In this document: positions 33,144 to 64,000 of the stretch, in pieces | Numbering within the stretch: the stretch's first letter is position 1 | Layout: every line of letters starts with the position of its first letter | Source of the DNA: Gymnothorax reevesii | Lineage: Eukaryota; Chordata; Actinopteri; Anguilliformes; Muraenidae | Assembly: GCA_029721435.1 (NCBI GenBank) | Contig: CM056584.1 | Span: 7,956,395-8,020,394, forward strand | Length of the DNA: 64,000 nt | Direction of reading: 5' to 3' | Translations under genes and position numbers: made by a program | Notes under the pieces: generated by a model | Databases searched by the model: none | What the model was told of the DNA's origin: nothing | The model's input: only the letters and a program-made list of their open reading frames with translations

Positions 33144-33185
33144 ATGCTAATGCTAACATGCTGATGCTAACATGCTAATGCTAGC
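33144..33185. repeat. 14-bp sub-unit x3, class a
   Basis: TTTCG class in unit M1, 327 bp after the diverged monomer at 32817 and just right of the inferred 1463-bp deletion. Confidence 0.95.
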
Positions 33186-34123: not shown

Positions 34124-34165
34124 ATGCTAATGCTAACATGCTGATGCTAACATGCTAATGCTAGC
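34124..34165. repeat. 14-bp sub-unit x3, class c
   Basis: Lies about 130 bp before the AACGCTG marker at 34257; the same order of class c block then AACGCTG recurs in all later units. Confidence 0.95.
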
Positions 34166-37100: not shown

Positions 37101-37358
37101 ACTGTACGTGTCCTCTATGATTGGAGTATGGGATCAGATGGCATTTCAGCTTCACCCTGCTTGTGTAAAATAGAAATTGAGTGACGTTAATGTTTGAATG
37201 CTAATGCTAACATGCTCATGCTAGTGATCTAATGTGAGTGCTAATATCTGGTCATTTTCATACTGTACGTGTCCTCTATGATGTTAGTATGAGATCAGAT
37301 GGCATTTCTCCTTCACCCTTCTTGCATTATAAGCAAATTGAGTAATGTTAATGTTTCG

Positions 37359-37400
37359 ATGCTAATGCTAACATGCTGATGCTAACATGCTAATGCTAGC
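37359..37400. repeat. 14-bp sub-unit x3, class a
   Basis: TTTCG class in M2. The upstream words now read CTTGCATTATAAGC rather than CTTGTATTATAAGC, a change kept in all later class a copies. Confidence 0.95.
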
Positions 37401-39143
37401 AATCTAATGTGAGTGCTAATACCTGGTCATTTTCATACTGTACATGTCCTCTATGATGGGAGTATGGGATCAGATGGCATTTCAGCTTAACCCTGCTTGT
37501 GTAAAATGGAAATTGAGTGACGTTAATGTTTGAATGCTAATGCTAACATGCTTATGCTAGCGATCTAATGTGAGTGCTAATATCTGGTCATTTTCTTTCT
37601 GTAAGTGTCCTCTATGATGTTAGTATGAGATCAGATGGCATTTCTCCTTCACCCTTCTTGTGTTATAAGCAAATTGAGTAATGTTAATGTTTCAATGCTA
37701 ATGCTAACATGCTGATGCTAGCAATCTAATGTGAGTGCTAATACCTGGTCATTTTCATACTGTACATGTCTTCTATGATGGGAGTATGGGATCAGATGGC
37801 ATTTCAGCTTAACCCTGCTTGTGTAAAATAGAAATTGAGTGACGTTAATGTTTGAATGCTAATGCTAACATGCTAATGCTAGCGATCTAATGTGAGTGCT
37901 AATATCTGGTCATTTTCATCCTGTAAGTGTCCTCTATGATGTTAGTATGAGATCAGATGGCATTTCAGCTTAACCCTTCTTGTATAATAAAAAAATTGAG
38001 TAATGTTAATGTTTAAATGCTAATGCTAACATGCTAATGCTAGCGATCTAATGTGAGTGCTAATATCTGGTCATTTTCATACTATACGTGTCCTCTATAA
38101 TGTTAATCGGAGATCAGATGGCATTTCAGCTTAACCCTTCTTGTGTAAAATGGAAATTGAGTGACATTAATGTTTTAATACTCATGCTAACATGCTAATG
38201 CTATCGATCTAATGTGAGTGCTAATATCTGGTCATTTTCATACTGTACGTGTCCTCTATGATGGGAGTATTGGATCAGATGGCATTTCAGCTTAACCCTG
38301 CTTGTGTAAAATAAAAATTGAGTGACGTTAATGTTTGAATGCTAATGCTAACATGCTAATGCTAGCGATCTAATGTGAGTGCTAATATCTGGTCATTTTC
38401 ATACTGTACGTGTCCTCTATGATGTTAATAGGAGATCAGATGGCATTTCAGCTTTACCCTTCTTGTATAATAAAAAAATTGAGTAATGTTAATGTTTAAA
38501 TGCTAATGCTAACATGCTAATGCTAGAGATCTAATGTCAGTTCTAATATCTGGTCATTTCCATACTCTACCTGTCCTCTATGATGTTAATAGGAGATCAG
38601 ATGGCATTTCAGCTTAACCCTTCATGTGTAAAATGGAAATTGAGTGACATTAATGTTTTAATACTAATGCTAACATGCTAATGCTAGCGATCTAATGTGA
38701 GTGCTAATATCTGGTCATTTTCATACTGTAAGTGTCCTCCATGATGGGAGTATGGGATCAGATGGCATTTCAGCTTAACCCTGCTTGTGTAAAATGGAAA
38801 TTGAGTGACGTTAATGTTTGAATACTAAGGCTAACATGCTAATGCTAGCAATCTAATATGAGTGCTAATATCTGGTCATGTTCATACTGTACGTGTCCTC
38901 TATGATGGGAGTATGGGATCAGATGGCATTTCAGCTTAACCCTGCTTGTGTAAAATAGAAATTGAGTGACGTTAATGTTTGAATGCTAATGCTAACATGC
39001 TAATGCTAGCGATCTAATGTGAGTGCTAATATCTGGTCATTTTCATACTGTAAGTGTCCTCTATGATGGGAGTATGGGATCAGATGGCATTTCTCCTTCA
39101 CCCTTCTTGTATTATAAGCAAATTGGGTAATGTTAATGTTTCA

Positions 39144-39185
39144 ATGCTAATGCTAACATGCTGATGCTAACATGCTAATGCTAGC
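39144..39185. repeat. 14-bp sub-unit x3, class c
   Basis: Partner of 34124 at offset 5020. Confidence 0.95.
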
Positions 39186-42100
39186 AATCTAATGTGAGTG
39201 CTAATACCTGGTCATTTTCATACTGTACATGTCTTCTATGATGGGAGTATGGGATCAGATGGCATTTCAGCTTAACGCTGCTTGTGTAAAATAGAAATTG
39301 AGTGACGTTAATGTTTGAATGCTAATGCTAACATGCTTATGATAGCGATCTAATGTGAGTTCTAATATCTGGTCATTTTCATACTATACGTGTCCTCTCT
39401 GATGTTAATAGGAGATCAGATGGCATTTCAGCTCAACCCTTTTTGTGTAAAATGGAAATTGAGTGACATTAATGTTTTAATACTAATGCTAACATGCTAA
39501 TGCTAGCGATCTAATGTGAGTGCTAATATCTGGTCATTTTCATACTGTACGTGTCCTCTATGATGGGAGTATTGGATCAGATGGCATTTCAGCTCAACCC
39601 TTTTTGTGTAAAATAGAAATTGAGTGACATTAATGTTTGAATGCTAATGCTAACATGCTAATGCTAGCGATCTAATGTGAGTTCTAATATCTGGTCATTT
39701 TCATACTACACGTGTCCTCAATGATGTTAATAGGAGATCAGATGGCATTTCAGCTTAACCCTTCTTGTTTAAAATGGAAATTGAGTGATGTGAATGTTTA
39801 AATGCTAATGCTAACATGCTAATGCTAGCGCTCTAATGTGAGTGCTAATATGTAGTCATTTTCATACTGTACGTGTCCTCTATAAGGGGAATATGGGATC
39901 AGATGGCATTTCAGCTTAACCCTGTTTGTGTAAAATGGAAATTGAGTGACGTTAATGTTTAAATGCTAATGCTAACATGCAAATGCTAGCGATCTAATGT
40001 GAGTGCTAATATCTGGTCATTTATTACTGTACGTGTCCTCTATGATGTTAATAGGAGATCAGATGGCATTTCAGCTTAACCTTGCTTGTGTAAAATGGAA
40101 ATTGAGTGACGTTCATGTTTTAATGCTAATGCTAACATGCTAATGCTAGTGATCTAATGTGAGTGCTAATACCTGGTCATTTTCATACTGCACATGTCCT
40201 CTATGATGGGAGTATAAGATCAGATGGCTTTTCAGCTTAACCCTGCTTGTGTAAAATGGAAATTGAGTGACGTTAATGTTTGAATGCTAATGCTAACATG
40301 CTAATGCTAGCGATCTAATGTGAGTTCTAATATCTGGTCATTTTCATACCATACGTGTCTTCTATGATGTTAATAGGAGATCAGATGGCATTTCAGCTTA
40401 ACCCTGCTTGTGTACAATGGAAATTTAGTGACGTTACTGTTTGAATGCTAATGCTAACATGCTAATTCTAGCGATCTAATGTGAGTGCTAATTTCTGGTC
40501 ATTTTCATACTACACGTGTCCTCTATGATATTAATAGGAGATCAGATGGCATTTCAGCTTAACCCTTCTTGTTTAAAATGGAAATTGAGTGATGTTAATG
40601 TTTAAATGCTAATGCTAACATGCTAATGCTAGCGCTCTAATGTGAGTGCTAATATCTGGTCATTTTCATACTGTACGTGTCCTCTATGATGGGAATATGG
40701 GATCAGATGGCATTTCAGCTTAACCCTGTTTGTGTAAAATGGAAATTGAGTGACATTAATGTTTAAATGCTAATGCTAACATGCAAATGCTAGCGATCTA
40801 ATGTGAGTGCTAATATCTGGTCATTTTCATACTGTACGTGTCCTCTATGATGTTAATAGGAGATCAGATGGCATTTCAGCTTAACCCTGCTTGTGTACAA
40901 TGGAAATTTAGTGACGTTAATGTTTGAATGCTAATGCTAACATGCTAATTCTAGCGATCTAATGTGAGTGCTAATATCTGGTCATTTTCATACTACACGT
41001 GTCCTCTATGATATTAATAGGAGATCAGATGGCATTTCAGCTTCACCCTTCTTGTTTAAAATGGAAATTGAGTGATGTTAATGTTTAAATGCTAATGCTA
41101 ACATGCTAATGCTAGCGCTCTAATGTGAGTGCTAATATGTGGTCATTTTCATACTGTACGTGTCCTCTATGATGGGAATATGGGATCAGATGGCATTTCA
41201 GCTTAACCCTGTTTGTGTAAAATGGAAATTGAGTGACGTTAATGTTTAAATGCTAATGCTAACATGCAAATGCTAGCTATCTAATGTGAGTGCTAATATC
41301 TGGTCATTTTCATACTGTACGTGTCCTCTATGATGGGAGTATTGGATCAGATGGCATTTCAGCTTAACCCTGCTTGTGTAAAATAGAAATTGAGTGACGT
41401 TAATGTTTGAATGCTAATGCTAACATGCTTATGCTAGCGATCTAATGTGAGTTCTAATATCTGGTCATTTTCATACTATACGTGTCCTCTCTGATATTAA
41501 TAGGAGATCAGATGGGATCTCAGCTCAACCCTTTTTGTGTAAAATGGAAATTGAGTGACATTAATGTTTTAATACTAATGCTAACATGCTAATGCTAGCG
41601 ATCTAATGTGAGTGCTAATATCTGGTCATTTTCATACTGTACGTGTCCTCTATGATGGGAGTATTGGATCAGATGGCATTTCAGCTTAACCCTGCTTGTG
41701 TAAAATAGAAATTGAGTGACGTTAATGTTTGAATGCTAATGCTAACATGCTAATGCTAGCGATCTAATGTGAGTTCTAATATCTGGTCATTTTCATACTA
41801 TACGTGTCCTCTATGATGTTAATAGGAGATCAGATGGCATTTCAGCTTAACCCTTCTTGTTTAAAATGGAAATTGAGTGATGTTAATGTTTAAATGCTAA
41901 TGCTAACATGCTAATGCTAGCGCTCTAATGTGAGTGCTAATATGTGGTCATGTTCATACTGTACGTGTCCTCTATGATGGGAGTATGGGATCAGATGGCA
42001 TTTCAGCTTAACCCTGCTTGTGGAAAAATGGAAATTGAGTGAAGTTAATGTTGGAATACTAATGCTAACATGCTTATGCTAGCAATCTATTGTGAGTGCC

Positions 42101-42377
42101 AATATCTGGTGATTTTCATACTGTACGTGTCCTCTATGATTGGAGTATGGGATCAGATGGCATTTCAGCTTCACCCTGCTTGTGTAAAATAGAAATTGAG
42201 TGACGTTAATGTTTGAATGCTAATGCTAACATGCTCATGCTAGTGATCTAATGTGAGTGCTAATATCTGGTCATTTTCATACTGTACGTGTCCTCTATGA
42301 TGTTAGTATGAGATCAGATGGCATTTCTCCTTCACCCTTCTTGCATTATAAGCAAATTGAGTAATGTTAATGTTTCG

Positions 42378-42419
42378 ATGCTAATGCTAACATGCTGATG
42401 CTAACATGCTAATGCTAGC
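42378..42419. repeat. 14-bp sub-unit x3, class a
   Basis: Partner of 37359 at offset 5019, with the CTTGCATTAT change. Confidence 0.95.
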
Positions 42420-43035
42420 AATCTAATGTGAGTGCTAATACCTGGTCATTTTCATACTGTACATGTCCTCTATGATGGGAGTATGGGATCAGATGGCATT
42501 TCAGCTTAACCCTGCTTGTGTAAAATGGAAATTGAGTGACGTTAATGTTTGAATGCTAATGCTAACATGCTTATGCTAGCGATCTAATGTGAGTGCTAAT
42601 ATCTGGTCATTTTCTTTCTGTAAGTGTCCTCTATGATGTTAGTATGAGATCAGATGGCATTTCTCCTTCACCCTTCTTGTGTTATAAGCAAATTGAGTAA
42701 TGTTAATGTTTCAATGCTAATGCTAACATGCTGATGCTAGCAATCTAATGTGAGTGCTAATACCTGGTCATTTTCATACTGTACATGTCTTCTATGATGG
42801 GAGTATGGGATCAGATGGCATTTCAGCTTAACCCTGCTTGTGTAAAATAGAAATTGAGTGACGTTAATGTTTGAATGCTAATGCTAACATGCTAATGCTA
42901 GCGATCTAATGTGAGTGCTAATATCTGGTCATTTTCATACTGTAAGTGTCCTCTATGATGGGAGTATGGGATCAGATGGCATTTCTCCTTCACCCTTCTT
43001 GTATTATAAGCAAATTGGGTAATGTTAATGTTTCA

Positions 43036-43077
43036 ATGCTAATGCTAACATGCTGATGCTAACATGCTAATGCTAGC
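43036..43077. repeat. 14-bp sub-unit x3, class c
   Basis: Partner of 39144 at offset 3892. Class a and class c blocks are now only 658 bp apart, the spacing set by the M3-type junction. Confidence 0.95.
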
Positions 43078-46000
43078 AATCTAATGTGAGTGCTAATACC
43101 TGGTCATTTTCATACTGTACATGTCTTCTATGATGGGAGTATGGGATCAGATGGCATTTCAGCTTAACGCTGCTTGTGTAAAATAGAAATTGAGTGACGT
43201 TAATGTTTGAATGCTAATGCTAACATGCTTATGATAGCGATCTAATGTGAGTTCTAATATCTGGTCATTTTCATACTATACGTGTCCTCTCTGATGTTAA
43301 TAGGAGATCAGATGGCATTTCAGCTCAACCCTTTTTGTGTAAAATGGAAATTGAGTGACATTAATGTTTTAATACTAATGCTAACATGCTAATGCTAGCG
43401 ATCTAATGTGAGTGCTAATATCTGGTCATTTTCATACTGTACGTGTCCTCTATGATGGGAGTATTGGATCAGATGGCATTTCAGCTTAACCCTGCTTGTG
43501 TAAAATAGAAATTGAGTGATGTTAATGTTTGAATGCTAATGCTAACATGCTAATGCTAGCGATCTAATGTGAGTTCTAATATCTGGTCATTTTCATACTA
43601 CACGTGTCCTCAATGATGTTAATAGGAGATCAGATGGCATTTCAGCTTAACCCTTCTTGTTTAAAATGGAAATTGAGTGATGTTAATGTTTAAATGCTAA
43701 TGCTAACATGCTAATGCTAGCGCTCTAATGTGAGTGCTAATATGTGGTCATTTTCATACTGTACGTGTCCTCTATAAGGGGAATATGGGATCAGATGGCA
43801 TTTCAGCTTAACCCTGTTTGTGTAAAATGGAAATTGAGTGACGTTAATGTTTAAATGCTAATGCTAACATGCAAATGCTAGCGATCTAATGTGAGTGCTA
43901 ATATCTGGTCATTTTCTTACTGTACGTGTCCTCTATGATGTTAATAGGAGATCAGATGGCATTTCAGCTTAACCTTGCTTGTGTAAAATGGAAATTGAGT
44001 GACGTTCATGTTTTAATGCTAATGCTAACATGCTAATGCTAGTGATCTAATGTGAGTGCTAATACCTGGTCATTTTCATACTGCACATGTCCTCTATGAT
44101 GGGAGTATAAGATCAGATGGCTTTTCAGCTTAACCCTGCTTGTGTAAAATGGAAATTGAGTGACGTTAATGTTTGAATGCTAATGCTAACATGCTAATGC
44201 TAGCGATCTAATGTGAGTTCTAATATCTGGTCATTTTCATACCATACGTGTCTTCTATGATGTTAATAGGAGATCAGATGGCATTTCAGCTTAACCCTGC
44301 TTGTGTACAATGGAAATTTAGTGACGTTACTGTTTGAATGCTAATGCTAACATGCTAATTCTAGCGATCTAATGTGAGTGCTAATTTCTGGTCATTTTCA
44401 TACTACACGTGTCCTCTATGATATTAATAGGAGATCAGATGGCATTTCAGCCTAACCCTTCTTGTTTAAAATGGAAATTGAGTGATGTTAATGTTTAAAT
44501 GCTAATGCTAACATGCTAATGCTAGCGCTCTAATGTGAGTGCTAATATCTGGTCATTTTCATACTGTACGTGTCCTCTATGATGGGAATATGGGATCAGA
44601 TGGCATTTCAGCTTAACCCTGTTTGTGTAAAATGGAAATTGAGTGACATTAATGTTTAAATGCTAATGCTAACATGCAAATGCTAGCGATCTAATGTGAG
44701 TGCTAATATCTGGTCATTTTCATACTGTACGTGTCCTCTATGATGTTAATAGGAGATCAGATGGCATTTCAGCTTAACCCTGCTTGTGTACAATGGAAAT
44801 TTAGTGACGTTAATGTTTGAATGCTAATGCTAACATGCTAATTCTAGCGATCTAATGTGAGTGCTAATATCTGGTCATTTTCATACTACACGTGTCCTCT
44901 ATGATATTAATAGGAGATCAGATGGCATTTCAGCTTCACCCTTCTTGTTTAAAATGGAAATTGAGTGATGTTAATGTTTAAATGCTAATGCTAACATGCT
45001 AATGCTAGCGCTCTAATGTGAGTGCTAATATGTGGTCATTTTCATACTGTACGTGTCCTCTATGATGGGAATATGGGATCAGATGGCATTTCAGCTTAAC
45101 CCTGTTTGTGTAAAATGGAAATTGAGTGACGTTAATGTTTAAATGCTAATGCTAACATGCAAATGCTAGCTATCTAATGTGAGTGCTAATATCTGGTCAT
45201 TTTCATACTGTACGTGTCCTCGATGATGGGAGTATTGGATCAGATGGCATTTCAGCTTAACCCTGCTTGTGTAAAATAGAAATTGAGTGACGTTAATGTT
45301 TGAATGCTAATGCTAACATGCTTATGCTAGCGATCTAATGTGAGTTCTAATATCTGGTCATTTTCATACTATACGTGTCCTCTCTGATGTTAATAGGAGA
45401 TCAAATGGGATCTCAGCTCAACCCTTTTTGTGTAAAATGGAAATTGAGTGACATTAATGTTTTAATACTAATGCTAACATGCTAATGCTAGCGATCTAAT
45501 GTGAGTGCTAATATCTGGTCATTTTCATACTGTACGTGTCCTCTATGATGGGAGTATTGGATCAGATGGCATTTCAGCTTAACCCTGCTTGTGTAAAATA
45601 GAAATTGAGTGACGTTAATGTTTGAATGCTAATGCTAACATGCTAATGCTAGCGATCTAATGTGAGTTCTAATATCTGGTCATTTTCATACTATACGTGT
45701 CCTCTATGATGTTAATAGGAGATCAGATGGCATTTCAGCTTAACCCTTCTTGTTTAAAATGGAAATTGAGTGATGTTAATGTTTAAATGCTAATGCTAAC
45801 ATGCTAATGCTAGCGCTCTAATGTGAGTGCTAATATGTGGTCATTTTCATACTGTACGTGTCCTCTATGATGGGAGTATGGGATCAGATGGCATTTCAGC
45901 TTAACCCTGCTTGTGGAAAAATGGAAATTGAGTGAAGTTAATGTTGGAATACTAATGCTAACATGCTTATGCTAGCAATCTATTGTGAGTGCCAATATCT

Positions 46001-46270
46001 GGTGATTTTCATACTGTACGTGTCCTCTATGATTGGAGTATGGGATCAGATGGCATTTCAGCTTCACCCTGCTTGTGTAAAATAGAAATTGAGTGACGTT
46101 AATGTTTGAATGCTAATGCTAATATGCTAATGCTAGTGATCTAATGTGAGTGCTAATATCTGGTCATTTTCATACTGTACGTGTCCTCTATGATGTTAGT
46201 ATGAGATCAGATGGCATTTCTCCTTCACCCTTCTTGCATTATAAGCAAATTGAGTAATGTTAATGTTTCG

Positions 46271-46312
46271 ATGCTAATGCTAACATGCTGATGCTAACAT
46301 GCTAATGCTAGC
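46271..46312. repeat. 14-bp sub-unit x3, class a
   Basis: In 8079-bp copy 1, partner of 42378 at offset 3893. Confidence 0.95.
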
Positions 46313-49300
46313 AATCTAATGTGAGTGCTAATACCTGGTCATTTTCATACTGTACATGTCCTCTATGATGGGAGTATGGGATCAGATGGCATTTCAGCTT
46401 AACCCTGCTTGTGTAAAATGGAAATTGAGTGACGTTAATGTTTGAATGCTAATGCTAACATGCTAATGCTAGCGATCTAATGTGAGTGCTAATATCTGGT
46501 CATTTTCTTTCTGTAAGTGTCCTCTATGATGTTAGTATGAGATCAGATGGCATTTCTCCTTCACCCTTCTTGTGTTATAAGCAAATTGAGTAATGTTAAT
46601 GTTTCAATGCTAATGCTAACATGCTGATGCTAGCAATCTAATGTGAGTGCTAATACCTGGTCATTTTCATACTGTACATGTCTTCTATGATGGGAGTATG
46701 GGATCAGATGGCATTTCAGCTTAACCCTGCTTGTGTAAAATAGAAATTGAGTGACGTTAATGTTTGAATGCTAATGCTAACATGCTAATGCTAGCGATCT
46801 AATGTGAGTGCTAATATCTGGTCATTTTCATCCTGTAAGTGTCCTCTATGATGTTAGTATGAGATCAGATGGCATTTCAGCTTAACCCTTCTTGTATAAT
46901 AAAAAAATTGAGTAATGTTAATGTTTAAATGCTAATGCTAACCTGCTAATGCTAGCGATCTAATGTGAGTGCTAATATCTGGTCATTTTCATACTATACG
47001 TGTCCTCTATAATGTTAATAGGAGATCAGATGGCATTTCAGCTTAACCCTTCTTGTGTAAAATGGAAATTGAGTGACATTAATGTTTTAATACTCATGCT
47101 AACATGCTAATGCTATCGATCTAATGTGAGTGCTAATATCTGGTCATTTTCATACTGTACGTGTCCTCTATGATGGGAGTATTGGATCAGATGGCATTTC
47201 AGCTTAACCCTGCTTGTGTAAAATAAAAATTGAGTGACGTTAATGTTTGAATGCTAATGCTAACATGCTAATGCTAGCGATCTAATGTGAGTGCTAATAT
47301 CTGGTCATTTTCATACTGTACGTGTCCTCCATGATGTTAAAAGGAGATCAGATGGCATTTCAACTTAACCCTTCTTGTATAATAAAAAAATTGAGTAATG
47401 TTAATGTTTAAATGCTAATGCTAACATGCTAATTCTAGAGATCTAATGTCAGTTCTAATATCTTGTCATTTCCATACTCTACCTGTCCTCTATGATGTAA
47501 ATAGGAGATCAGATGGCATTTCAGCTTAACCCTTCTTGTGTAAAATGGAAATTGAGTGACATTAATGTTTTAATACTAATGCTAACATGCTAATGCTAGC
47601 GATCTAATGTGAGTGCTAATATCTGGTCATTTTCGTACTGTACGTGTCCTCTATGATGGGAGTATGGGATCACATGGCATTTCAGCTTAACCCTGCTTGT
47701 GTAAAATGGAAATTGAGTGAAGTTAATGTTTGAATACTAATGCTAACATGCTAATGCTAGCGATCTAATGTGAGTTCTAATATCTGGTCATTTTCATACT
47801 ACACGTGTCCTCAATGATGTTAATAGGAGATCAGATGGCATTTCAGCTTAACCCTTCTTGTTTAAAATGGAAATTGAGTGATGTTAATGTTTAAATGCTA
47901 ATGCTAACATGCTAATGCTAGCGCTCTAATGTGAGTGCTAATATGTGGTCATTTTCATACTGTACGTGTCCTCTATAAGGGGAATATGGGATCAGATGGC
48001 ATTTCAGCTTAACCCTGTTTGTGTAAAATGGAAATTGAGTGACGTTAATGTTTAAATGCTAATGCTAACATGCAAATGCTAGCGATCTAATGTGAGTGCT
48101 AATATCTGGTCATTTTCTTACTGTACGTGTCCTCTATGATGTTAATAGGAGATCAGATGGCATTTCAGCTTAACCTTGCTTGTGTAAAATGGAAATTGAG
48201 TGACGTTCATGTTTTAATGCTAATGCTAACATGCTAATGCTAGTGATCTAATGTGAGTGCTAATACCTGGTCATTTTCATACTGCACATGTCCTCTATGA
48301 TGGGAGTATAAGATCAGATGGCTTTTCAGCTTAACCCTGCTTGTGTAAAATGGAAATTGAGTGACGTTAATGTTTGAATGCTAATGCTAACATGCTAATG
48401 CTAGCGATCTAATGTGAGTTCTAATATCTGGTCATTTTCATACCATACGTTTCTTCTATGATGTTAATAGGAGATCAGATGGCATTTCAGCTTAACCCTG
48501 CTTGTGTACAATGGAAATTTAGTGACGTTACTGTTTGAATGCTAATGCTAACATGCTAATTCTAGCGATCTAATGTGAGTGCTAATTTCTGGTCATTTTC
48601 ATACTACACGTGTCCTCTATGATATTAATAGGAGATCAGATGGCATTTCAGCTTAACCCTTCTTGTTTAAAATGGAAATTGAGTGATGTTAATGTTTAAA
48701 TGCTAATGCTAACATGCTAATGCTAGCGATCTAATGTGAGTGCTAATATCTGGTCATTTTCATACTGTACGTGTCCTCTATGATGGGAATATGGGATCAG
48801 ATGGCATTTCAGCTTAACCCTGTTTGTGTAAAATGGAAATTGAGTGACATTAATGTTTAAATGCTAATGCTAACATGCAAATGCTAGCGATCTAATGTGA
48901 GTGCTAATATCTGGTCATTTTCATACTGTACGTGTCCTCTATGATGTTAATAGGAGATCAGATGGCATTTCAGCTTAACCCTGCTTGTGTACAATGGAAA
49001 TTTAGTGATGTTAATGTTTGAATGCTAATGCTAACATGCTAATTCTAGCGATCTAATGTGAGTGCTAATATCTGGTCATTTTCATACTACACGTGTCCTC
49101 TATGATATTAATAGGAGATCAGATGGCATTTCAGCTTCACCCTTCTTGTTTAAAATGGAAATTGAGTGATGTTAATGTTTAAATGCTAATGCTAACATGC
49201 TAATGCTAGCGCTCTAATGTGAGTGCTAATATGTGGTCATTTTCATACTGTACGTGTCCTCTATGATGGGAATATGGGATCAGATGGCATTTCAGCTTAA

Positions 49301-51114
49301 CCCTGTTTGTGTAAAATGGAAATTGAGTGACGTTAATGTTTAAATGCTAATGCTAACATGCAAATGCTAGCTATCTAATGTGAGTGCTAATATCTGGTCA
49401 TTTTCATACTGTACGTGTCCTCGATGATGGGAGTATTGGATCAGATGGCATTTCAGCTTAACCCTGCTTGTGTAAAATAGAAATTGAGTGACGTTAATGT
49501 TTGAATGCTAATGCTAACATGCTTATGCTAGCGATCTAATGTGAGTGCTAATATCTGGTCATTTTCATACTATACGTGTCCTCTATAATGTTAATAGGAG
49601 ATCAGATGGCATTTCAGCTTAACCCTTCTTGTGTAAAATGGAAATTGAGTGACATTAATGTTTTAATACTCATGCTAACATGCTAATGCTATCGATCTAA
49701 TGTGAGTGCTAATATCTGGTCATTTTCATACTGTACGTGTCCTCTATGATGGGAGTATTGGATCAGATGGCATTTCAGCTTAACCCTGCTTGTGTAAAAT
49801 AAAAATTGAGTGACGTTAATGTTTGAATGCTAATGCTAACATGCTAATGCTAGCGATCTAATGTGAGTGCTAATATCTGGTCATTTTCATACTGTACGTG
49901 TCCTCCATGATGTTAAAAGGAGATCAGATGGCATTTCAACTTAACCCTTCTTGTATAATAAAAAAATTGAGTAATGTTAATGTTTAAATGCTAATGCTAA
50001 CATGCTAATTCTAGAGATCTAATGTCAGTTCTAATATCTGGTCATTTCCATACTCTACCTGTCCTCTATGATGTTAATAGGAGATCAGATGGCATTTCAG
50101 CCTAACCCTTCTTGTTTAAAATGGAAATTGAGTGATGTTAATGTTTAAATGCTAATGCTAACATGCTAATGCTAGCGCTCTAATGTGAGTGCTAATATCT
50201 GGTCATTTTCATACTGTACGTGTCCTCTATGATGGGAATATGGGATCAGATGGCATTTCAGCTTAACCCTGTTTGTGTAAAATGGAAATTGAGTGACATT
50301 AATGTTTAAATGCTAATGCTAACATGCAAATGCTAGCGATCTAATGTGAGTGCTAATATCTGGTCATTTTCATACTGTACGTGTCCTCTATGATGTTAAT
50401 AGGAGATCAGATGGCATTTCAGCTTAACCCTGCTTGTGTACAATGGAAATTTAGTGACGTTAATGTTTGAATGCTAATGCTAACATGCTAATTCTAGCGA
50501 TCTAATGTGAGTGCTAATATCTGGTCATTTTCATACTACACGTGTCCTCTATGATATTAATAGGAGATCAGATGGCATTTCAGCTTCACCCTTCTTGTTT
50601 AAAATGGAAATTGAGTGATGTTAATGTTTAAATGCTAATGCTAACATGCTAATGCTAGCGCTCTAATGTGAGTGCTAATATCTGGTCATTTTCTTTCTGT
50701 AAGTGTCCTCTATGATGTTAGTATGAGATCAGATGGCATTTCTCCTTCACCCTTCTTGTGTTATAAGCAAATTGAGTAATGTTAATGTTTCAATGCTAAT
50801 GCTAACATGCTGATGCTAGCAATCTAATGTGAGTGCTAATACCTGGTCATTTTCATACTGTACATGTCTTCTATGATGGGAGTATGGGATCAGATGGCAT
50901 TTCAGCTTAACCCTGCTTGTGTAAAATAGAAATTGAGTGACGTTAATGTTTGAATGCTAATGCTAACATGCTAATGCTAGCGATCTAATGTGAGTGCTAA
51001 TATCTGGTCATTTTCATACTGTAAGTGTCCTCTATGATGGGAGTATGGGATCAGATGGCATTTCTCCTTCACCCTTCTTGTATTATAAGCAAATTGGGTA
51101 ATGTTAATGTTTCA

Positions 51115-51156
51115 ATGCTAATGCTAACATGCTGATGCTAACATGCTAATGCTAGC
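51115..51156. repeat. 14-bp sub-unit x3, class c
   Basis: Partner of 43036 at offset 8079; immediately precedes the AACGCTG marker of copy 2. Confidence 0.95.
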
Positions 51157-54100
51157 AATCTAATGTGAGTGCTAATACCTGGTCATTTTCATACTGTACA
51201 TGTCTTCTATGATGGGAGTATGGGATCAGATGGCATTTCAGCTTAACGCTGCTTGTGTAAAATAGAAATTGAGTGACGTTAATGTTTGAATGCTAATGCT
51301 AACATGCTTATGATAGCGATCTAATGTGAGTTCTAATATCTGGTCATTTTCATACTATACGTGTCCTCTCTGATGTTAATAGGAGATCAGATGGCATTTC
51401 AGCTCAACCCTTTTTGTGTAAAATGGAAATTGAGTGACATTAATGTTTTAATACTAATGCTAACATGCTAATGCTAGCGATCTAATGTGAGTGCTAATAT
51501 CTGGTCATTTTCATACTGTACGTGTCCTCTATGATGGGAGTATTGGATCAGATGGCATTTCAGCTTAACCCTGCTTGTGTAAAATAGAAATTGAGTGATG
51601 TTAATGTTTGAATGCTAATGCTAACATGCTAATGCTAGCGATCTAATGTGAGTTCTAATATCTGGTCATTTTCATACTACACGTGTCCTCAATGATGTTA
51701 ATAGGAGATCAGATGGCATTTCAGCTTAACCCTTCTTGTTTAAAATGGAAATTGAGTGATGTTAATGTTTAAATGCTAATGCTAACATGCTAATGCTAGC
51801 GCTCTAATGTGAGTGCTAATATGTGGTCATTTTCATACTGTACGTGTCCTCTATAAGGGGAATATGGGATCAGATGGCATTTCAGCTTAACCCTGTTTGT
51901 GTAAAATGGAAATTGAGTGACGTTAATGTTTAAATGCTAATGCTAACATGCAAATGCTAGCGATCTAATGTGAGTGCTAATATCTGGTCATTTTCTTACT
52001 GTACGTGTCCTCTATGATGTTAATAGGAGATCAGATGGCATTTCAGCTTAACCTTGCTTGTGTAAAATGGAAATTGAGTGACGTTCATGTTTTAATGCTA
52101 ATGCTAACATGCTAATGCTAGTGATCTAATGTGAGTGCTAATACCTGGTCATTTTCATACTGCACATGTCCTCTATGATGGGAGTATAAGATCAGATGGC
52201 TTTTCAGCTTAACCCTGCTTGTGTAAAATGGAAATTGAGTGACGTTAATGTTTGAATGCTAATGCTAACATGCTAATGCTAGCGATCTAATGTGAGTTCT
52301 AATATCTGGTCATTTTCATACCATACGTGTCTTCTATGATGTTAATAGGAGATCAGATGGCATTTCAGCTTAACCCTGCTTGTGTACAATGGAAATTTAG
52401 TGACGTTACTGTTTGAATGCTAATGCTAACATGCTAATTCTAGCGATCTAATGTGAGTGCTAATTTCTGGTCATTTTCATACTACACGTGTCCTCTATGA
52501 TATTAATAGGAGATCAGATGGCATTTCAGCCTAACCCTTCTTGTTTAAAATGGAAATTGAGTGATGTTAATGTTTAAATGCTAATGCTAACATGCTAATG
52601 CTAGCGCTCTAATGTGAGTGCTAATATCTGGTCATTTTCATACTGTACGTGTCCTCTATGATGGGAATATGGGATCAGATGGCATTTCAGCTTAACCCTG
52701 TTTGTGTAAAATGGAAATTGAGTGACATTAATGTTTAAATGCTAATGCTAACATGCAAATGCTAGCGATCTAATGTGAGTGCTAATATCTGGTCATTTTC
52801 ATACTGTACGTGTCCTCTATGATGTTAATAGGAGATCAGATGGCATTTCAGCTTAACCCTGCTTGTGTACAATGGAAATTTAGTGACGTTAATGTTTGAA
52901 TGCTAATGCTAACATGCTAATTCTAGCGATCTAATGTGAGTGCTAATATCTGGTCATTTTCATACTACACGTGTCCTCTATGATATTAATAGGAGATCAG
53001 ATGGCATTTCAGCTTCACCCTTCTTGTTTAAAATGGAAATTGAGTGATGTTAATGTTTAAATGCTAATGCTAACATGCTAATGCTAGCGCTCTAATGTGA
53101 GTGCTAATATGTGGTCATTTTCATACTGTACGTGTCCTCTATGATGGGAATATGGGATCAGATGGCATTTCAGCTTAACCCTGTTTGTGTAAAATGGAAA
53201 TTGAGTGACGTTAATGTTTAAATGCTAATGCTAACATGCAAATGCTAGCTATCTAATGTGAGTGCTAATATCTGGTCATTTTCATACTGTACGTGTCCTC
53301 GATGATGGGAGTATTGGATCAGATGGCATTTCAGCTTAACCCTGCTTGTGTAAAATAGAAATTGAGTGACGTTAATGTTTGAATGCTAATGCTAACATGC
53401 TTATGCTAGCGATCTAATGTGAGTTCTAATATCTGGTCATTTTCATACTATACGTGTCCTCTCTGATGTTAATAGGAGATCAAATGGGATCTCAGCTCAA
53501 CCCTTTTTGTGTAAAATGGAAATTGAGTGACATTAATGTTTTAATACTAATGCTAACATGCTAATGCTAGCGATCTAATGTGAGTGCTAATATCTGGTCA
53601 TTTTCATACTGTACGTGTCCTCTATGATGGGAGTATTGGATCAGATGGCATTTCAGCTTAACCCTGCTTGTGTAAAATAGAAATTGAGTGACGTTAATGT
53701 TTGAATGCTAATGCTAACATGCTAATGCTAGCGATCTAATGTGAGTTCTAATATCTGGTCATTTTCATACTATACGTGTCCTCTATGATGTTAATAGGAG
53801 ATCAGATGGCATTTCAGCTTAACCCTTCTTGTTTAAAATGGAAATTGAGTGATGTTAATGTTTAAATGCTAATGCTAACATGCTAATGCTAGCGCTCTAA
53901 TGTGAGTGCTAATATGTGGTCATTTTCATACTGTACGTGTCCTCTATGATGGGAGTATGGGATCAGATGGCATTTCAGCTTAACCCTGCTTGTGGAAAAA
54001 TGGAAATTGAGTGAAGTTAATGTTGGAATACTAATGCTAACATGCTTATGCTAGCAATCTATTGTGAGTGCCAATATCTGGTGATTTTCATACTGTACGT

Positions 54101-54349
54101 GTCCTCTATGATTGGAGTATGGGATCAGATGGCATTTCAGCTTCACCCTGCTTGTGTAAAATAGAAATTGAGTGACGTTAATGTTTGAATGCTAATGCTA
54201 ATATGCTAATGCTAGTGATCTAATGTGAGTGCTAATATCTGGTCATTTTCATACTGTACGTGTCCTCTATGATGTTAGTATGAGATCAGATGGCATTTCT
54301 CCTTCACCCTTCTTGCATTATAAGCAAATTGAGTAATGTTAATGTTTCG

Positions 54350-54391
54350 ATGCTAATGCTAACATGCTGATGCTAACATGCTAATGCTAGC
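54350..54391. repeat. 14-bp sub-unit x3, class a
   Basis: Partner of 46271 at offset 8079, in copy 2. Confidence 0.95.
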
Positions 54392-57300
54392 AATCTAATG
54401 TGAGTGCTAATACCTGGTCATTTTCATACTGTACATGTCCTCTATGATGGGAGTATGGGATCAGATGGCATTTCAGCTTAACCCTGCTTGTGTAAAATGG
54501 AAATTGAGTGACGTTAATGTTTGAATGCTAATGCTAACATGCTAATGCTAGCGATCTAATGTGAGTGCTAATATCTGGTCATTTTCTTTCTGTAAGTGTC
54601 CTCTATGATGTTAGTATGAGATCAGATGGCATTTCTCCTTCACCCTTCTTGTGTTATAAGCAAATTGAGTAATGTTAATGTTTCAATGCTAATGCTAACA
54701 TGCTGATGCTAGCAATCTAATGTGAGTGCTAATACCTGGTCATTTTCATACTGTACATGTCTTCTATGATGGGAGTATGGGATCAGATGGCATTTCAGCT
54801 TAACCCTGCTTGTGTAAAATAGAAATTGAGTGACGTTAATGTTTGAATGCTAATGCTAACATGCTAATGCTAGCGATCTAATGTGAGTGCTAATATCTGG
54901 TCATTTTCATCCTGTAAGTGTCCTCTATGATGTTAGTATGAGATCAGATGGCATTTCAGCTTAACCCTTCTTGTATAATAAAAAAATTGAGTAATGTTAA
55001 TGTTTAAATGCTAATGCTAACCTGCTAATGCTAGCGATCTAATGTGAGTGCTAATATCTGGTCATTTTCATACTATACGTGTCCTCTATAATGTTAATAG
55101 GAGATCAGATGGCATTTCAGCTTAACCCTTCTTGTGTAAAATGGAAATTGAGTGACATTAATGTTTTAATACTCATGCTAACATGCTAATGCTATCGATC
55201 TAATGTGAGTGCTAATATCTGGTCATTTTCATACTGTACGTGTCCTCTATGATGGGAGTATTGGATCAGATGGCATTTCAGCTTAACCCTGCTTGTGTAA
55301 AATAAAAATTGAGTGACGTTAATGTTTGAATGCTAATGCTAACATGCTAATGCTAGCGATCTAATGTGAGTGCTAATATCTGGTCATTTTCATACTGTAC
55401 GTGTCCTCCATGATGTTAAAAGGAGATCAGATGGCATTTCAACTTAACCCTTCTTGTATAATAAAAAAATTGAGTAATGTTAATGTTTAAATGCTAATGC
55501 TAACATGCTAATTCTAGAGATCTAATGTCAGTTCTAATATCTTGTCATTTCCATACTCTACCTGTCCTCTATGATGTAAATAGGAGATCAGATGGCATTT
55601 CAGCTTAACCCTTCTTGTGTAAAATGGAAATTGAGTGACATTAATGTTTTAATACTAATGCTAACATGCTAATGCTAGCGATCTAATGTGAGTGCTAATA
55701 TCTGGTCATTTTCGTACTGTACGTGTCCTCTATGATGGGAGTATGGGATCACATGGCATTTCAGCTTAACCCTGCTTGTGTAAAATGGAAATTGAGTGAA
55801 GTTAATGTTTGAATACTAATGCTAACATGCTAATGCTAGCGATCTAATGTGAGTTCTAATATCTGGTCATTTTCATACTACACGTGTCCTCAATGATGTT
55901 AATAGGAGATCAGATGGCATTTCAGCTTAACCCTTCTTGTTTAAAATGGAAATTGAGTGATGTTAATGTTTAAATGCTAATGCTAACATGCTAATGCTAG
56001 CGCTCTAATGTGAGTGCTAATATGTGGTCATTTTCATACTGTACGTGTCCTCTATAAGGGGAATATGGGATCAGATGGCATTTCAGCTTAACCCTGTTTG
56101 TGTAAAATGGAAATTGAGTGACGTTAATGTTTAAATGCTAATGCTAACATGCAAATGCTAGCGATCTAATGTGAGTGCTAATATCTGGTCATTTTCTTAC
56201 TGTACGTGTCCTCTATGATGTTAATAGGAGATCAGATGGCATTTCAGCTTAACCTTGCTTGTGTAAAATGGAAATTGAGTGACGTTCATGTTTTAATGCT
56301 AATGCTAACATGCTAATGCTAGTGATCTAATGTGAGTGCTAATACCTGGTCATTTTCATACTGCACATGTCCTCTATGATGGGAGTATAAGATCAGATGG
56401 CTTTTCAGCTTAACCCTGCTTGTGTAAAATGGAAATTGAGTGACGTTAATGTTTGAATGCTAATGCTAACATGCTAATGCTAGCGATCTAATGTGAGTTC
56501 TAATATCTGGTCATTTTCATACCATACGTTTCTTCTATGATGTTAATAGGAGATCAGATGGCATTTCAGCTTAACCCTGCTTGTGTACAATGGAAATTTA
56601 GTGACGTTACTGTTTGAATGCTAATGCTAACATGCTAATTCTAGCGATCTAATGTGAGTGCTAATTTCTGGTCATTTTCATACTACACGTGTCCTCTATG
56701 ATATTAATAGGAGATCAGATGGCATTTCAGCTTAACCCTTCTTGTTTAAAATGGAAATTGAGTGATGTTAATGTTTAAATGCTAATGCTAACATGCTAAT
56801 GCTAGCGATCTAATGTGAGTGCTAATATCTGGTCATTTTCATACTGTACGTGTCCTCTATGATGGGAATATGGGATCAGATGGCATTTCAGCTTAACCCT
56901 GTTTGTGTAAAATGGAAATTGAGTGACATTAATGTTTAAATGCTAATGCTAACATGCAAATGCTAGCGATCTAATGTGAGTGCTAATATCTGGTCATTTT
57001 CATACTGTACGTGTCCTCTATGATGTTAATAGGAGATCAGATGGCATTTCAGCTTAACCCTGCTTGTGTACAATGGAAATTTAGTGATGTTAATGTTTGA
57101 ATGCTAATGCTAACATGCTAATTCTAGCGATCTAATGTGAGTGCTAATATCTGGTCATTTTCATACTACACGTGTCCTCTATGATATTAATAGGAGATCA
57201 GATGGCATTTCAGCTTCACCCTTCTTGTTTAAAATGGAAATTGAGTGATGTTAATGTTTAAATGCTAATGCTAACATGCTAATGCTAGCGCTCTAATGTG

Positions 57301-59193
57301 AGTGCTAATATGTGGTCATTTTCATACTGTACGTGTCCTCTATGATGGGAATATGGGATCAGATGGCATTTCAGCTTAACCCTGTTTGTGTAAAATGGAA
57401 ATTGAGTGACGTTAATGTTTAAATGCTAATGCTAACATGCAAATGCTAGCTATCTAATGTGAGTGCTAATATCTGGTCATTTTCATACTGTACGTGTCCT
57501 CGATGATGGGAGTATTGGATCAGATGGCATTTCAGCTTAACCCTGCTTGTGTAAAATAGAAATTGAGTGACGTTAATGTTTGAATGCTAATGCTAACATG
57601 CTTATGCTAGCGATCTAATGTGAGTGCTAATATCTGGTCATTTTCATACTATACGTGCCCTCTATAATGTTAATAGGAGATCAGATGGCATTTCAGCTTA
57701 ACCCTTCTTGTGTAAAATGGAAATTGAGTGACATTAATGTTTTAATACTCATGCTAACATGCTTATGCTATCGATCTAATGTGAGTGCTAATATCTGGTC
57801 ATTTTCATACTGTACGTGTCCTCTATGATGGGAGTATTGGATCAGATGGCATTTCAGCTTAACCCTGCTTGTGTAAAATAAAAATTGAGTGACGTTAATG
57901 TTTGAATGCTAATGCTAACATGCTAATGCTAGCGATCTAATGTGAGTGCTAATATCTGGTCATTTTCATACTGTACGTGTCCTCCATGATGTTAAAAGGA
58001 GATCAGATGGCATTTCAACTTAACCCTTCTTGTATAATAAAAAAATTGAGTAATGTTAATGTTTAAATGCTAATGCTAACATGCTAATTCTAGAGATCTA
58101 ATGTCAGTTCTAATATCTGGTCATTTCCATACTCTACCTGTCCTCTATGATGTTAATAGGAGATCAGATGGCATTTCAGCCTAACCCTTCTTGTTTAAAA
58201 TGGAAATTGAGTGATGTTAATGTTTAAATGCTAATGCTAACATGCTAATGCTAGCGCTCTAATGTGAGTGCTAATATCTGGTCATTTTCATACTGTACGT
58301 GTCCTCTATGATGGGAATATGGGATCAGATGGCATTTCAGCTTAACCCTGTTTGTGTAAAATGGAAATTGAGTGACATTAATGTTTAAATGCTAATGCTA
58401 ACATGCAAATGCTAGCGATCTAATGTGAGTGCTAATATCTGGTCATTTTCATACTGTACGTGTCCTCTATGATGTTAATAGGAGATCAGATGGCATTTCA
58501 GCTTAACCCTGCTTGTGTACAATGGAAATTTAGTGACGTTAATGTTTGAATGCTAATGCTAACATGCTAATTCTAGCGATCTAATGTGAGTGCTAATATC
58601 TGGTCATTTTCATACTACACGTGTCCTCTATGATATTAATAGGAGATCAGATGGCATTTCAGCTTCACCCTTCTTGTTTAAAATGGAAATTGAGTGATGT
58701 TAATGTTTAAATGCTAATGCTAACATGCTAATGCTAGCGCTCTAATGTGAGTGCTAATATCTGGTCATTTTCTTTCTGTAAGTGTCCTCTATGATGTTAG
58801 TATGAGATCAGATGGCATTTCTCCTTCACCCTTCTTGTGTTATAAGCAAATTGAGTAATGTTAATGTTTCAATGCTAATGCTAACATGCTGATGCTAGCA
58901 ATCTAATGTGAGTGCTAATACCTGGTCATTTTCATACTGTACATGTCTTCTATGATGGGAGTATGGGATCAGATGGCATTTCAGCTTAACCCTGCTTGTG
59001 TAAAATAGAAATTGAGTGACGTTAATGTTTGAATGCTAATGCTAACATGCTAATGCTAGCGATCTAATGTGAGTGCTAATATCTGGTCATTTTCATACTG
59101 TAAGTGTCCTCTATGATGGGAGTATGGGATCAGATGGCATTTCTCCTTCACCCTTCTTGTATTATAAGCAAATTGGGTAATGTTAATGTTTCA

Positions 59194-59235
59194 ATGCTAA
59201 TGCTAACATGCTGATGCTAACATGCTAATGCTAGC
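59194..59235. repeat. 14-bp sub-unit x3, class c
   Basis: Partner of 51115 at offset 8079; precedes the AACGCTG marker of copy 3. Confidence 0.95.
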
Positions 59236-59326
59236 AATCTAATGTGAGTGCTAATACCTGGTCATTTTCATACTGTACATGTCTTCTATGATGGGAGTAT
59301 GGGATCAGATGGCATTTCAGCTTAAC

Positions 59327-62300
59327 GCTGCTTGTGTAAAATAGAAATTGAGTGACGTTAATGTTTGAATGCTAATGCTAACATGCTTATGATAGCGATC
59401 TAATGTGAGTTCTAATATCTGGTCATTTTCATACTATACGTGTCCTCTCTGATGTTAATAGGAGATCAGATGGCATTTCAGCTCAACCCTTTTTGTGTAA
59501 AATGGAAATTGAGTGACATTAATGTTTTAATACTAATGCTAACATGCTAATGCTAGCGATCTAATGTGAGTGCTAATATCTGGTCATTTTCATACTGTAC
59601 GTGTCCTCTATGATGGGAGTATTGGATCAGATGGCATTTCAGCTTAACCCTGCTTGTGTAAAATAGAAATTGAGTGATGTTAATGTTTGAATGCTAATGC
59701 TAACATGCTAATGCTAGCGATCTAATGTGAGTTCTAATATCTGGTCATTTTCATACTACACGTGTCCTCAATGATGTTAATAGGAGATCAGATGGCATTT
59801 CAGCTTAACCCTTCTTGTTTAAAATGGAAATTGAGTGATGTTAATGTTTAAATGCTAATGCTAACATGCTAATGCTAGCGCTCTAATGTGAGTGCTAATA
59901 TGTGGTCATTTTCATACTGTACGTGTCCTCTATAAGGGGAATATGGGATCAGATGGCATTTCAGCTTAACCCTGTTTGTGTAAAATGGAAATTGAGTGAC
60001 GTTAATGTTTAAATGCTAATGCTAACATGCAAATGCTAGCGATCTAATGTGAGTGCTAATATCTGGTCATTTTCTTACTGTACGTGTCCTCTATGATGTT
60101 AATAGGAGATCAGATGGCATTTCAGCTTAACCTTGCTTGTGTAAAATGGAAATTGAGTGACGTTCATGTTTTAATGCTAATGCTAACATGCTAATGCTAG
60201 TGATCTAATGTGAGTGCTAATACCTGGTCATTTTCATACTGCACATGTCCTCTATGATGGGAGTATAAGATCAGATGGCTTTTCAGCTTAACCCTGCTTG
60301 TGTAAAATGGAAATTGAGTGACGTTAATGTTTGAATGCTAATGCTAACATGCTAATGCTAGCGATCTAATGTGAGTTCTAATATCTGGTCATTTTCATAC
60401 CATACGTGTCTTCTATGATGTTAATAGGAGATCAGATGGCATTTCAGCTTAACCCTGCTTGTGTACAATGGAAATTTAGTGACGTTACTGTTTGAATGCT
60501 AATGCTAACATGCTAATTCTAGCGATCTAATGTGAGTGCTAATTTCTGGTCATTTTCATACTACACGTGTCCTCTATGATATTAATAGGAGATCAGATGG
60601 CATTTCAGCCTAACCCTTCTTGTTTAAAATGGAAATTGAGTGATGTTAATGTTTAAATGCTAATGCTAACATGCTAATGCTAGCGCTCTAATGTGAGTGC
60701 TAATATCTGGTCATTTTCATACTGTACGTGTCCTCTATGATGGGAATATGGGATCAGATGGCATTTCAGCTTAACCCTGTTTGTGTAAAATGGAAATTGA
60801 GTGACATTAATGTTTAAATGCTAATGCTAACATGCAAATGCTAGCGATCTAATGTGAGTGCTAATATCTGGTCATTTTCATACTGTACGTGTCCTCTATG
60901 ATGTTAATAGGAGATCAGATGGCATTTCAGCTTAACCCTGCTTGTGTACAATGGAAATTTAGTGACGTTAATGTTTGAATGCTAATGCTAACATGCTAAT
61001 TCTAGCGATCTAATGTGAGTGCTAATATCTGGTCATTTTCATACTACACGTGTCCTCTATGATATTAATAGGAGATCAGATGGCATTTCAGCTTCACCCT
61101 TCTTGTTTAAAATGGAAATTGAGTGATGTTAATGTTTAAATGCTAATGCTAACATGCTAATGCTAGCGCTCTAATGTGAGTGCTAATATGTGGTCATTTT
61201 CATACTGTACGTGTCCTCTATGATGGGAATATGGGATCAGATGGCATTTCAGCTTAACCCTGTTTGTGTAAAATGGAAATTGAGTGACGTTAATGTTTAA
61301 ATGCTAATGCTAACATGCAAATGCTAGCTATCTAATGTGAGTGCTAATATCTGGTCATTTTCATACTGTACGTGTCCTCGATGATGGGAGTATTGGATCA
61401 GATGGCATTTCAGCTTAACCCTGCTTGTGTAAAATAGAAATTGAGTGACGTTAATGTTTGAATGCTAATGCTAACATGCTTATGCTAGCGATCTAATGTG
61501 AGTTCTAATATCTGGTCATTTTCATACTATACGTGTCCTCTCTGATGTTAATAGGAGATCAAATGGGATCTCAGCTCAACCCTTTTTGTGTAAAATGGAA
61601 ATTGAGTGACATTAATGTTTTAATACTAATGCTAACATGCTAATGCTAGCGATCTAATGTGAGTGCTAATATCTGGTCATTTTCATACTGTACGTGTCCT
61701 CTATGATGGGAGTATTGGATCAGATGGCATTTCAGCTTAACCCTGCTTGTGTAAAATAGAAATTGAGTGACGTTAATGTTTGAATGCTAATGCTAACATG
61801 CTAATGCTAGCGATCTAATGTGAGTTCTAATATCTGGTCATTTTCATACTATACGTGTCCTCTATGATGTTAATAGGAGATCAGATGGCATTTCAGCTTA
61901 ACCCTTCTTGTTTTAAATGGAAATTGAGTGATGTTAATGTTTAAATGCTAATGCTAACATGCTAATGCTAGCGCTCTAATGTGAGTGCTAATATGTGGTC
62001 ATTTTCATACTGTACGTGTCCTCTATGATGGGAGTATGGGATCAGATGGCATTTCAGCTTAACCCTGCTTGTGGAAAAATGGAAATTGAGTGAAGTTAAT
62101 GTTGGAATACTAATGCTAACATGCTTATGCTAGCAATCTATTGTGAGTGCCAATATCTGGTGATTTTCATACTGTACGTGTCCTCTATGATTGGAGTATG
62201 GGATCAGATGGCATTTCAGCTTCACCCTGCTTGTGTAAAATAGAAATTGAGTGACGTTAATGTTTGAATGCTAATGCTAATATGCTAATGCTAGTGATCT

Positions 62301-64000
62301 AATGTGAGTGCTAATATCTGGTCATTTTCATACTGTACGTGTCCTCTATGATGTTAGTATGAGATCAGATGGCATTTCTCCTTCACCCTTCTTGCATTAT
62401 AAGCAAATTGAGTAATGTTAATGTTTCGATGCTAATGCTAACATGCTGATGCTAACATGCTAATGCTAGCAATCTAATGTGAGTGCTAATACCTGGTCAT
62501 TTTCATACTGTACATGTCCTCTATGATGGGAGTATGGGATCAGATGGCATTTCAGCTTAACCCTGCTTGTGTAAAATGGAAATTGAGTGACGTTAATGTT
62601 TGAATGCTAATGCTAACATGCTAATGCTAGCGATCTAATGTGAGTGCTAATATCTGGTCATTTTCTTTCTGTAAGTGTCCTCTATGATGTTAGTATGAGA
62701 TCAGATGGCATTTCTCCTTCACCCTTCTTGTGTTATAAGCAAATTGAGTAATGTTAATGTTTCAATGCTAATGCTAACATGCTGATGCTAGCAATCTAAT
62801 GTGAGTGCTAATACCTGGTCATTTTCATACTGTACATGTCTTCTATGATGGGAGTATGGGATCAGATGGCATTTCAGCTTAACCCTGCTTGTGTAAAATA
62901 GAAATTGAGTGACGTTAATGTTTGAATGCTAATGCTAACATGCTAATGCTAGCGATCTAATGTGAGTGCTAATATCTGGTCATTTTCATCCTGTAAGTGT
63001 CCTCTATGATGTTAGTATGAGATCAGATGGCATTTCAGCTTAACCCTTCTTGTATAATAAAAAAATTGAGTAATGTTAATGTTTAAATGCTAATGCTAAC
63101 CTGCTAATGCTAGCGATCTAATGTGAGTGCTAATATCTGGTCATTTTCATACTATACGTGTCCTCTATAATGTTAATAGGAGATCAGATGGCATTTCAGC
63201 TTAACCCTTCTTGTGTAAAATGGAAATTGAGTGACATTAATGTTTTAATACTCATGCTAACATGCTAATGCTATCGATCTAATGTGAGTGCTAATATCTG
63301 GTCATTTTCATACTGTACGTGTCCTCTATGATGGGAGTATTGGATCAGATGGCATTTCAGCTTAACCCTGCTTGTGTAAAATAAAAATTGAGTGACGTTA
63401 ATGTTTGAATGCTAATGCTAACATGCTAATGCTAGCGATCTAATGTGAGTGCTAATATCTGGTCATTTTCATACTGTACGTGTCCTCCATGATGTTAAAA
63501 GGAGATCAGATGGCATTTCAACTTAACCCTTCTTGTATAATAAAAAAATTGAGTAATGTTAATGTTTAAATGCTAATGCTAACATGCTAATTCTAAAGAT
63601 CTAATGTCAGTTCTAATATCTTGTCATTTCCATACTCTACCTGTCCTCTATGATGTAAATAGGAGATCAGATGGCATTTCAGCTTAACCCTTCTTGTGTA
63701 AAATGGAAATTGAGTGACATTAATGTTTTAATACTAATGCTAACATGCTAATGCTAGCGATCTAATGTGAGTGCTAATATCTGGTCATTTTCGTACTGTA
63801 CGTGTCCTCTATGATGGGAGTATGGGATCAGATGGCATTTCAGCTTAACCCTGCTTGTGTAAAATGGAAATTGAGTGAAGTTAATGTTTGAATACTAATG
63901 CTAACATGCTAATGCTAGCGATCTAATGTGAGTTCTAATATCTGGTCATTTTCATACTACACGTGTCCTCAATGATGTTAATAGGAGATCAGATGGCATT
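59327..64000. repeat. 8079-bp HOR unit, copy 3 (cut by window end)
   Basis: This partial copy matches copy 2 at offset 8079 to the last base. Differences I found are T at 61914 (A at 53835), A at 63596 (G at 55517) and G at 63831, where both earlier copies have C (47673 and 55752). The G at 63831 is the usual satellite base, so either this copy keeps the older state or the C was shared by copies 1 and 2 only. Confidence 0.92.
62429..62470. repeat. 14-bp sub-unit x3, class a
   Basis: Partner of 54350 at offset 8079, in copy 3; the last 175-bp monomer in the window. Confidence 0.95.

Follow-up and report, generated by a model that had tools for sequence, protein, structure and literature searches.

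Probable recent amplification of a 50-monomer unit in a 161-bp satellite array of Gymnothorax reevesii

We analysed a 64,000-nucleotide window of Gymnothorax reevesii (contig CM056584.1, positions 7,956,395 to 8,020,394) that is satellite DNA throughout, and found that its right-hand part repeats with a period of 8079 bp (42583–64000, 2.651 copies). We give a probability of about 0.85 to the reading that this block is a real and very young tandem amplification within the 161-bp satellite, made by homology-dependent exchange between misaligned repeats that kept monomer register. It is best read as an early, recent expansion of a higher-order repeat (HOR) of a known kind, whose useful part is a readable seam together with nesting among other duplications. 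HOR growth is usually inferred from mature, many-copy arrays; an early stage may be visible here, where a parental monomer on one side, a chimeric seam, at least two copies with few mutations and an older duplication that is apparently cut across all stand in view together, exchange points can be placed within 20 bp and an order of events can be proposed.

The 8079-bp period and its chimeric seam

An ungapped scan of offsets 20–16499 gives 99.96% identity at offset 8079 within 42585–64000, against 85.7% at offset 161, which ranks highest once multiples of 8079 are set aside. Wrap-around alignment resolves the unit into exactly 50 monomers (47 of 161 bp, two of 175 bp and one of 162 bp), repeating in register up to the window end:

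42583..50661, + strand: copy 1 of the 8079-bp unit, from offset-8079 identity; two substitutions relative to copy 2
50662..58740, + strand: copy 2, with the derived base at both sites that differ from copy 1
58741..64000, + strand: partial copy 3 (5260 bp), ending at the window end; three substitutions relative to copies 1 and 2

Period, copy number and unit size had all been proposed by a sequence-only reading of this DNA, whose starting point (42585) lies 2 bp from ours, and the two and three substitutions that it counted between copies can now be assigned to exact sites. The sole differences between copies 1 and 2 are a T at 49579 that is C in copy 2 and an A at 49685 that is T in copy 2; copy 3 departs from both at three sites, homologous to 53835, 55517 and 55752. 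The copies align without indels, and exact identity extends unbroken for as much as 6996 bp. Divergence between copies is therefore 0.02–0.06%, compared with 10.2% between adjacent monomers, which differ at a mean of 16.4 of 161 positions (range 9–24 in 49 adjacent pairs, substitutions only; mean 16.7, range 9–25, with a length penalty of 3 included). The contrast between close copies and distant neighbours that had been drawn earlier is thus borne out, with the qualification that some monomers within a unit lie close to one another: of the 1225 within-unit pairs, 43 score three differences or fewer.

For comparison along the window, monomers were grouped into classes by single linkage at ≤3 differences, with a penalty of 3 for each 14-bp length difference; 395 of 397 monomers were used, the two partial ones at the window ends being excluded. 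This yields 30 classes, the larger of which recur along the window. Over all lags, classes match in runs of up to 82 monomers, whereas 20 shuffles of monomer order give longest runs of 3–5, so the 8079-bp periodicity is not a matter of chance.

The edges of the period fall inside three monomers, and these record how the copies were joined:

42529..42689, + strand: left-edge monomer, class 3, within which the period starts at 42583; columns 11, 22, 43 and 53 are its only differences from monomer 50608
50608..50768, + strand: junction monomer between copies 1 and 2, a chimera whose left part is class 19 and whose right part is class 3; exchange point within 50662–50681
58687..58847, + strand: junction monomer between copies 2 and 3, identical to 50608 over its whole length; exchange point within 58741–58760

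Over its full length, monomer 50608 is nearest to class 3. Columns 0–53 show no difference from the class-19 consensus (two separate them from the runner-up among the 30 class consensuses) and are matched exactly by 30 of the 39 class-19 monomers and, outside that class, by the two junction monomers only. Columns 54–160 are those of monomer 42529; four other class-3 monomers (37510, 46422, 54501 and 62580) have the same columns, but the downstream class order 3-12-3-4 is met only after 42529, 50608 and 58687. Class 19 next departs from it at column 74, which confines the exchange to 20 bp (50662–50681). The surrounding monomers point the same way: the class pair 24-23 is followed by class 19 at 10 of its 12 occurrences, the other two being the two internal boundaries, so that context and sequence predict the same left parent for the junction monomer. 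A 55-mer spanning the junction (50648–50702) is found at 50648 and 58727 only, that is, at both internal boundaries. Such in-register chimeric monomers are the footprint of exchange between misaligned repeats.

We propose that a 50-monomer stretch was copied when repeats out of place, yet in monomer register, exchanged with one another. The recombining partners would be a class-19 monomer that closed the stretch on the right and the class-3 monomer that opened it on the left; the exchange would have fallen within a tract of 20 identical bp, and its product would be the chimeric monomer now present at 50608 and 58687. The enzymatic route may have been unequal exchange between sister chromatids or homologues, or break-induced replication, which leaves the same seam. 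Exchange between misaligned repeats is the ordinary mode of growth for satellite arrays; here its seam can still be read.

Neighbouring duplications and the order of events

Several other young duplications share the window with the 8079-bp unit:

1948..27645, + strand: 11,312-bp, 70-monomer tandem duplication (copy 1 1948–16333, copy 2 16334–27645; exchange point within 16274–16359)
inside copy 1 (1948–16333) of the preceding duplication, + strand: 3073-bp, 19-monomer inner duplication, which enlarges that copy
33295..42938, + strand: 5020-bp, 31-monomer duplication, second copy truncated at ~42938; four substitutions in 28 monomers
38959..42850, + strand: 24-monomer block whose tandem neighbour (from 42851) makes up most of the first half of the 8079-bp unit; 16 differences at offset 3892 (99.59%)

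The 11,312-bp pair carries seven substitutions and one 1-bp indel in ~14.4 kb; this duplication is larger than the 8079-bp unit and has a similar substitution density (7/14,386 against 5/13,338; Fisher p = 0.78). Corresponding comparisons of the 8079-bp event with the 5020- and 3073-bp duplications give p = 0.25 and p = 0.18. All three comparisons use substitutions only, with the 1-bp indel of the 11,312-bp pair left out, and a monomer-wise count serves for the 5020-bp pair, whose raw count loses its meaning past 35003, where the copies fall out of phase through a 1-bp shift. None of these duplications is significantly older than the 8079-bp event by substitution density. That homogenisation was most recent in this block, as had been suggested, is thus not established; the term, moreover, implies many copies, and 2.65 are visible. 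The 11,312-, 5020- and 3073-bp duplications are likewise ~99.9% identical, and blocks at other offsets reach 99.2–99.95% over 2–9 kb. Since several duplications of similar age adjoin here, HOR claims at the scale of a window should map all offsets.

The left end of the 8079-bp unit is entangled with two of these neighbours. Homology between the copies of the 5020-bp duplication ends at column 88 of monomer 42851, and 42583–42938 is identical to 37564–37919, which places the start of the 8079-bp unit within the second copy of the 5020-bp duplication. On the simplest reading the 8079-bp event would, for this reason, be the younger of the two. The pair of 24-monomer blocks at offset 3892 is an older fusion or duplication, and the breakpoint interval of its junction (42791–42938) is contained in the 8079-bp unit.

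Within the block itself, the five variable sites were polarised against all other monomers of the window. Copy 2 is the changed one at both sites that separate it from copy 1, and copy 3 is the changed one at two of the three sites that set it apart. At the third site (47673/55752) copies 1 and 2 have C in common, against G in copy 3 and in 391 of 396 scored monomers. Sharing of this derived C groups copies 1 and 2 as sisters and hints that copy 3 separated earlier, in which case two rounds are likely, copy 3 splitting off first and copies 1 and 2 afterwards. The statement of the sequence-only reading that private changes are shared holds for this one site.

Points against and alternative explanations

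Several observations weigh against the account given above, or narrow it. The chimeric seam cannot tell unequal crossover from break-induced replication or template switching. The class-19 parent is a stand-in from elsewhere in the array (10 of 12 contexts), as the right flank lies beyond the window. At the 11,312-, 3073- and 3892-bp junctions the exchanges fall in in-register tracts over which the parental stretches are identical for 86, 71 and 148 bp, respectively, but the tracts of identity at the four junctions show no significant excess of length over those at random points (proportion of random points with an equal or longer tract: 0.35, 0.11, 0.32 and 0.18). A preference of the exchanges for long homology is therefore unsupported, and their homology dependence is argued from junctions that are in register and seamless, not from tract length. 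A context-based chimera scan was mostly negative: 3 of 35 distinct monomers are mismatch-free mosaics (50608, 49481 and 3237), and the scan missed the 11,312-, 3073- and 3892-bp junctions, whose exchange intervals span a monomer boundary; it is too weak for a breakpoint map. A single base underlies the grouping of copies 1 and 2, and conversion of copy 3 is another possible source of that pattern. The order in which the 5020-bp duplication precedes the 8079-bp event is parsimony, not proof; in an alternative and more complicated history, the left 5020-bp copy may have been made from the right one after the 8079-bp event.

The best surviving alternative, which we nonetheless consider improbable, is that the tandem copies were made by the assembler, through a graph loop or by setting two haplotypes end to end, and that the genome holds fewer copies or none in tandem. 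Copies that differ by only 0.02–0.06% might be expected of two haplotypes, and an over-walked loop would yield identical junctions, as observed. Against this, a single-copy locus would be expected to lack the class-19/class-3 chimera, which an end-to-end misjoin would need to create in register and free of mismatches. Five sites have different bases between copies, and the 11,312- and 3073-bp duplications also have seamless in-register junctions. An over-walked loop is possible as an explanation of copy number, which may be over- or under-counted, and less easily of tandemness itself; a wholly invented tandem is unlikely.

Gene conversion between older tandem copies, maintaining their similarity with no recent copying, is very improbable: the derived base at two of the five variable sites is indeed common elsewhere at that column of the window (T at column 43 in 35 monomers and T at column 154 in 33, counts that include the copy itself), and at one site copies 1 and 2 share a rare base in place of the one prevalent in the array, which copy 3 carries, but exact identity runs on for up to 6996 bp where usual conversion tracts are far shorter, two other derived bases (C at column 98 and A at column 50) are unique in the window, and the sharp boundaries common to the copies fit a discrete copying event.

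Unit composition, known systems and the array

The 50 places of the unit are filled by 38 distinct sequences from 19 monomer classes, and the class labelled 19 takes eight of them. Part of this redundancy lies in an internal repeat:

43348..45279, + strand: 12-monomer block, repeated within each full unit at offset 4201 (47549–49480); 10 differences in 12 monomers (99.48%)

The unit is accordingly of the 'cascading' HOR type, in which monomer types recur within one unit. A Willard-type HOR is a unit with all monomers of distinct types. The human form of that arrangement differs from the one seen here, where 19 classes occupy 50 places and the near-identical pairs counted above (43 of 1225) show that monomers are not all of distinct types. 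As a mosaic of 19 recurrent classes, the unit is better described as cascading than as a classic alpha-satellite HOR. The earlier interpretation is to this extent partly supported, and holds in the main: recent HOR amplification gains from the chimeric monomers at both internal boundaries. A further monomer inside the unit (49481–49641) is a mismatch-free mosaic with class 26 on the left and class 11 on the right, exchanged between columns 44 and 60, and is possibly an older exchange seam.

The closest resemblance among published systems is to the cascading alpha-satellite super-higher-order repeats (superHORs) of the orangutan, a 58-mer on the Y (PMC12428378) and a 59-mer on chromosome 13 (PMC11276891). 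Like the 58-mer, the 8079-bp unit is very long and repeats monomer types internally (its 50 monomers fall into 19 classes, the orangutan's 58 into 44 types), and its copies are near-identical (0.25% among 46 canonical copies there, 0.02–0.06% here). It differs in having a 161-bp monomer, no CENP-B box and 2.65 visible copies, compared with 67 copies on the orangutan Y. The unit is large, as had been remarked from the sequence, but it sets no record, since published orangutan units of 58, 59 and 84 monomers exceed it (PMC12428378, PMC11276891). In human alpha satellite, which has 171-bp monomers, hybrid monomers of conserved length are abundant, and gene conversion and unequal crossover are the presumed mechanisms of homogenisation (PMC9549924); near-identical units and in-register hybrid monomers of conserved length are features shared with the present array. 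The array is nevertheless not alpha satellite, given its 161-bp monomer (against 171 bp) and lack of a CENP-B box (no full-motif match on either strand of the window).

Outside primates, centromeric satellites of a fish, the medaka, form arrays whose monomers fall into clusters (PMC5705604), a likeness at the level of description. The fungus gnat Bradysia coprophila has a centromeric and subtelomeric satellite with the same 161-bp unit length (PMC12051294), the centromere association being the gnat's. Its sequence is unrelated (best local score 21 against the consensus here, reached by 15 of 200 shuffles) and its AT content is 76.4%, compared with ~64% here. The terms '161 bp' and '161-bp' were absent from other satellite literature among the matches listed, and sequence words of the satellite itself matched no paper. 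A strict literature query returned no HORs in fish, which does not show fish HORs to be unpublished; among the matches listed, the broader HOR literature is mainly human, other primate and plant work. We put forward, as a tentative and rather doubtful extension, that a non-primate vertebrate centromere is now building a cascading superHOR through nested or neighbouring in-register exchanges of 24, 31, 19, 70 and 50 monomers within 64 kb (99.6–99.98% identity), their seams still legible; were this so, the order of amplification could be read directly from cross-cutting junctions.

The setting for all these events is a single uninterrupted satellite:

3..64000, + strand: whole array of ~396 head-to-tail monomers, from Tandem Repeats Finder and wrap-around alignment to the monomer consensus

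Tandem Repeats Finder reports one 161-bp array over this span, and wrap-around alignment of the whole 64-kb window found no foreign insertion. Among 395 complete monomers, 368 are of 161 bp, 19 of 175 bp, six of 162 bp and two of 160 bp. The array is probably centromeric or pericentromeric heterochromatin, in keeping with its purity and its 161-bp monomer. An underlying two- or three-monomer unit was ruled out, identities at successive monomer lags being flat (0.896–0.918). Folded as a single strand, one monomer does no better than shuffled sequence (z = 0.62), and no Rfam family reaches its gathering score in the window. In collections that hold no eukaryote genomes, the satellite core pattern has no exact match (viral_contigs and genome_contigs) and a 658-bp satellite stretch has no match among plasmids or phages.

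The repeats are rich in ATGCTAAC-type motifs, and GC content is 36% in 42583–64000. Over the same region CpG is depleted (observed/expected 0.39) and TpG raised (1.65), while CpA is not raised (0.99). The pattern is strand-asymmetric, and simple decay of methylated CpG does not explain it; with the CpA excess missing, such decay, for which germline methylation was considered, is not clearly indicated. The 175-bp monomers (n = 19, for example 43012–43186) have their 14 extra bp within the ATGCTAATGCTAAC tract and form one class, with pairwise differences at no more than seven positions (mean 2.8), although their separation from other classes is partly by construction, because the class distance penalises a 14-bp length difference by 3. 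This enlargement of the ATGCTAATGCTAAC tract fits a single origin, from which it may have spread through block copying.

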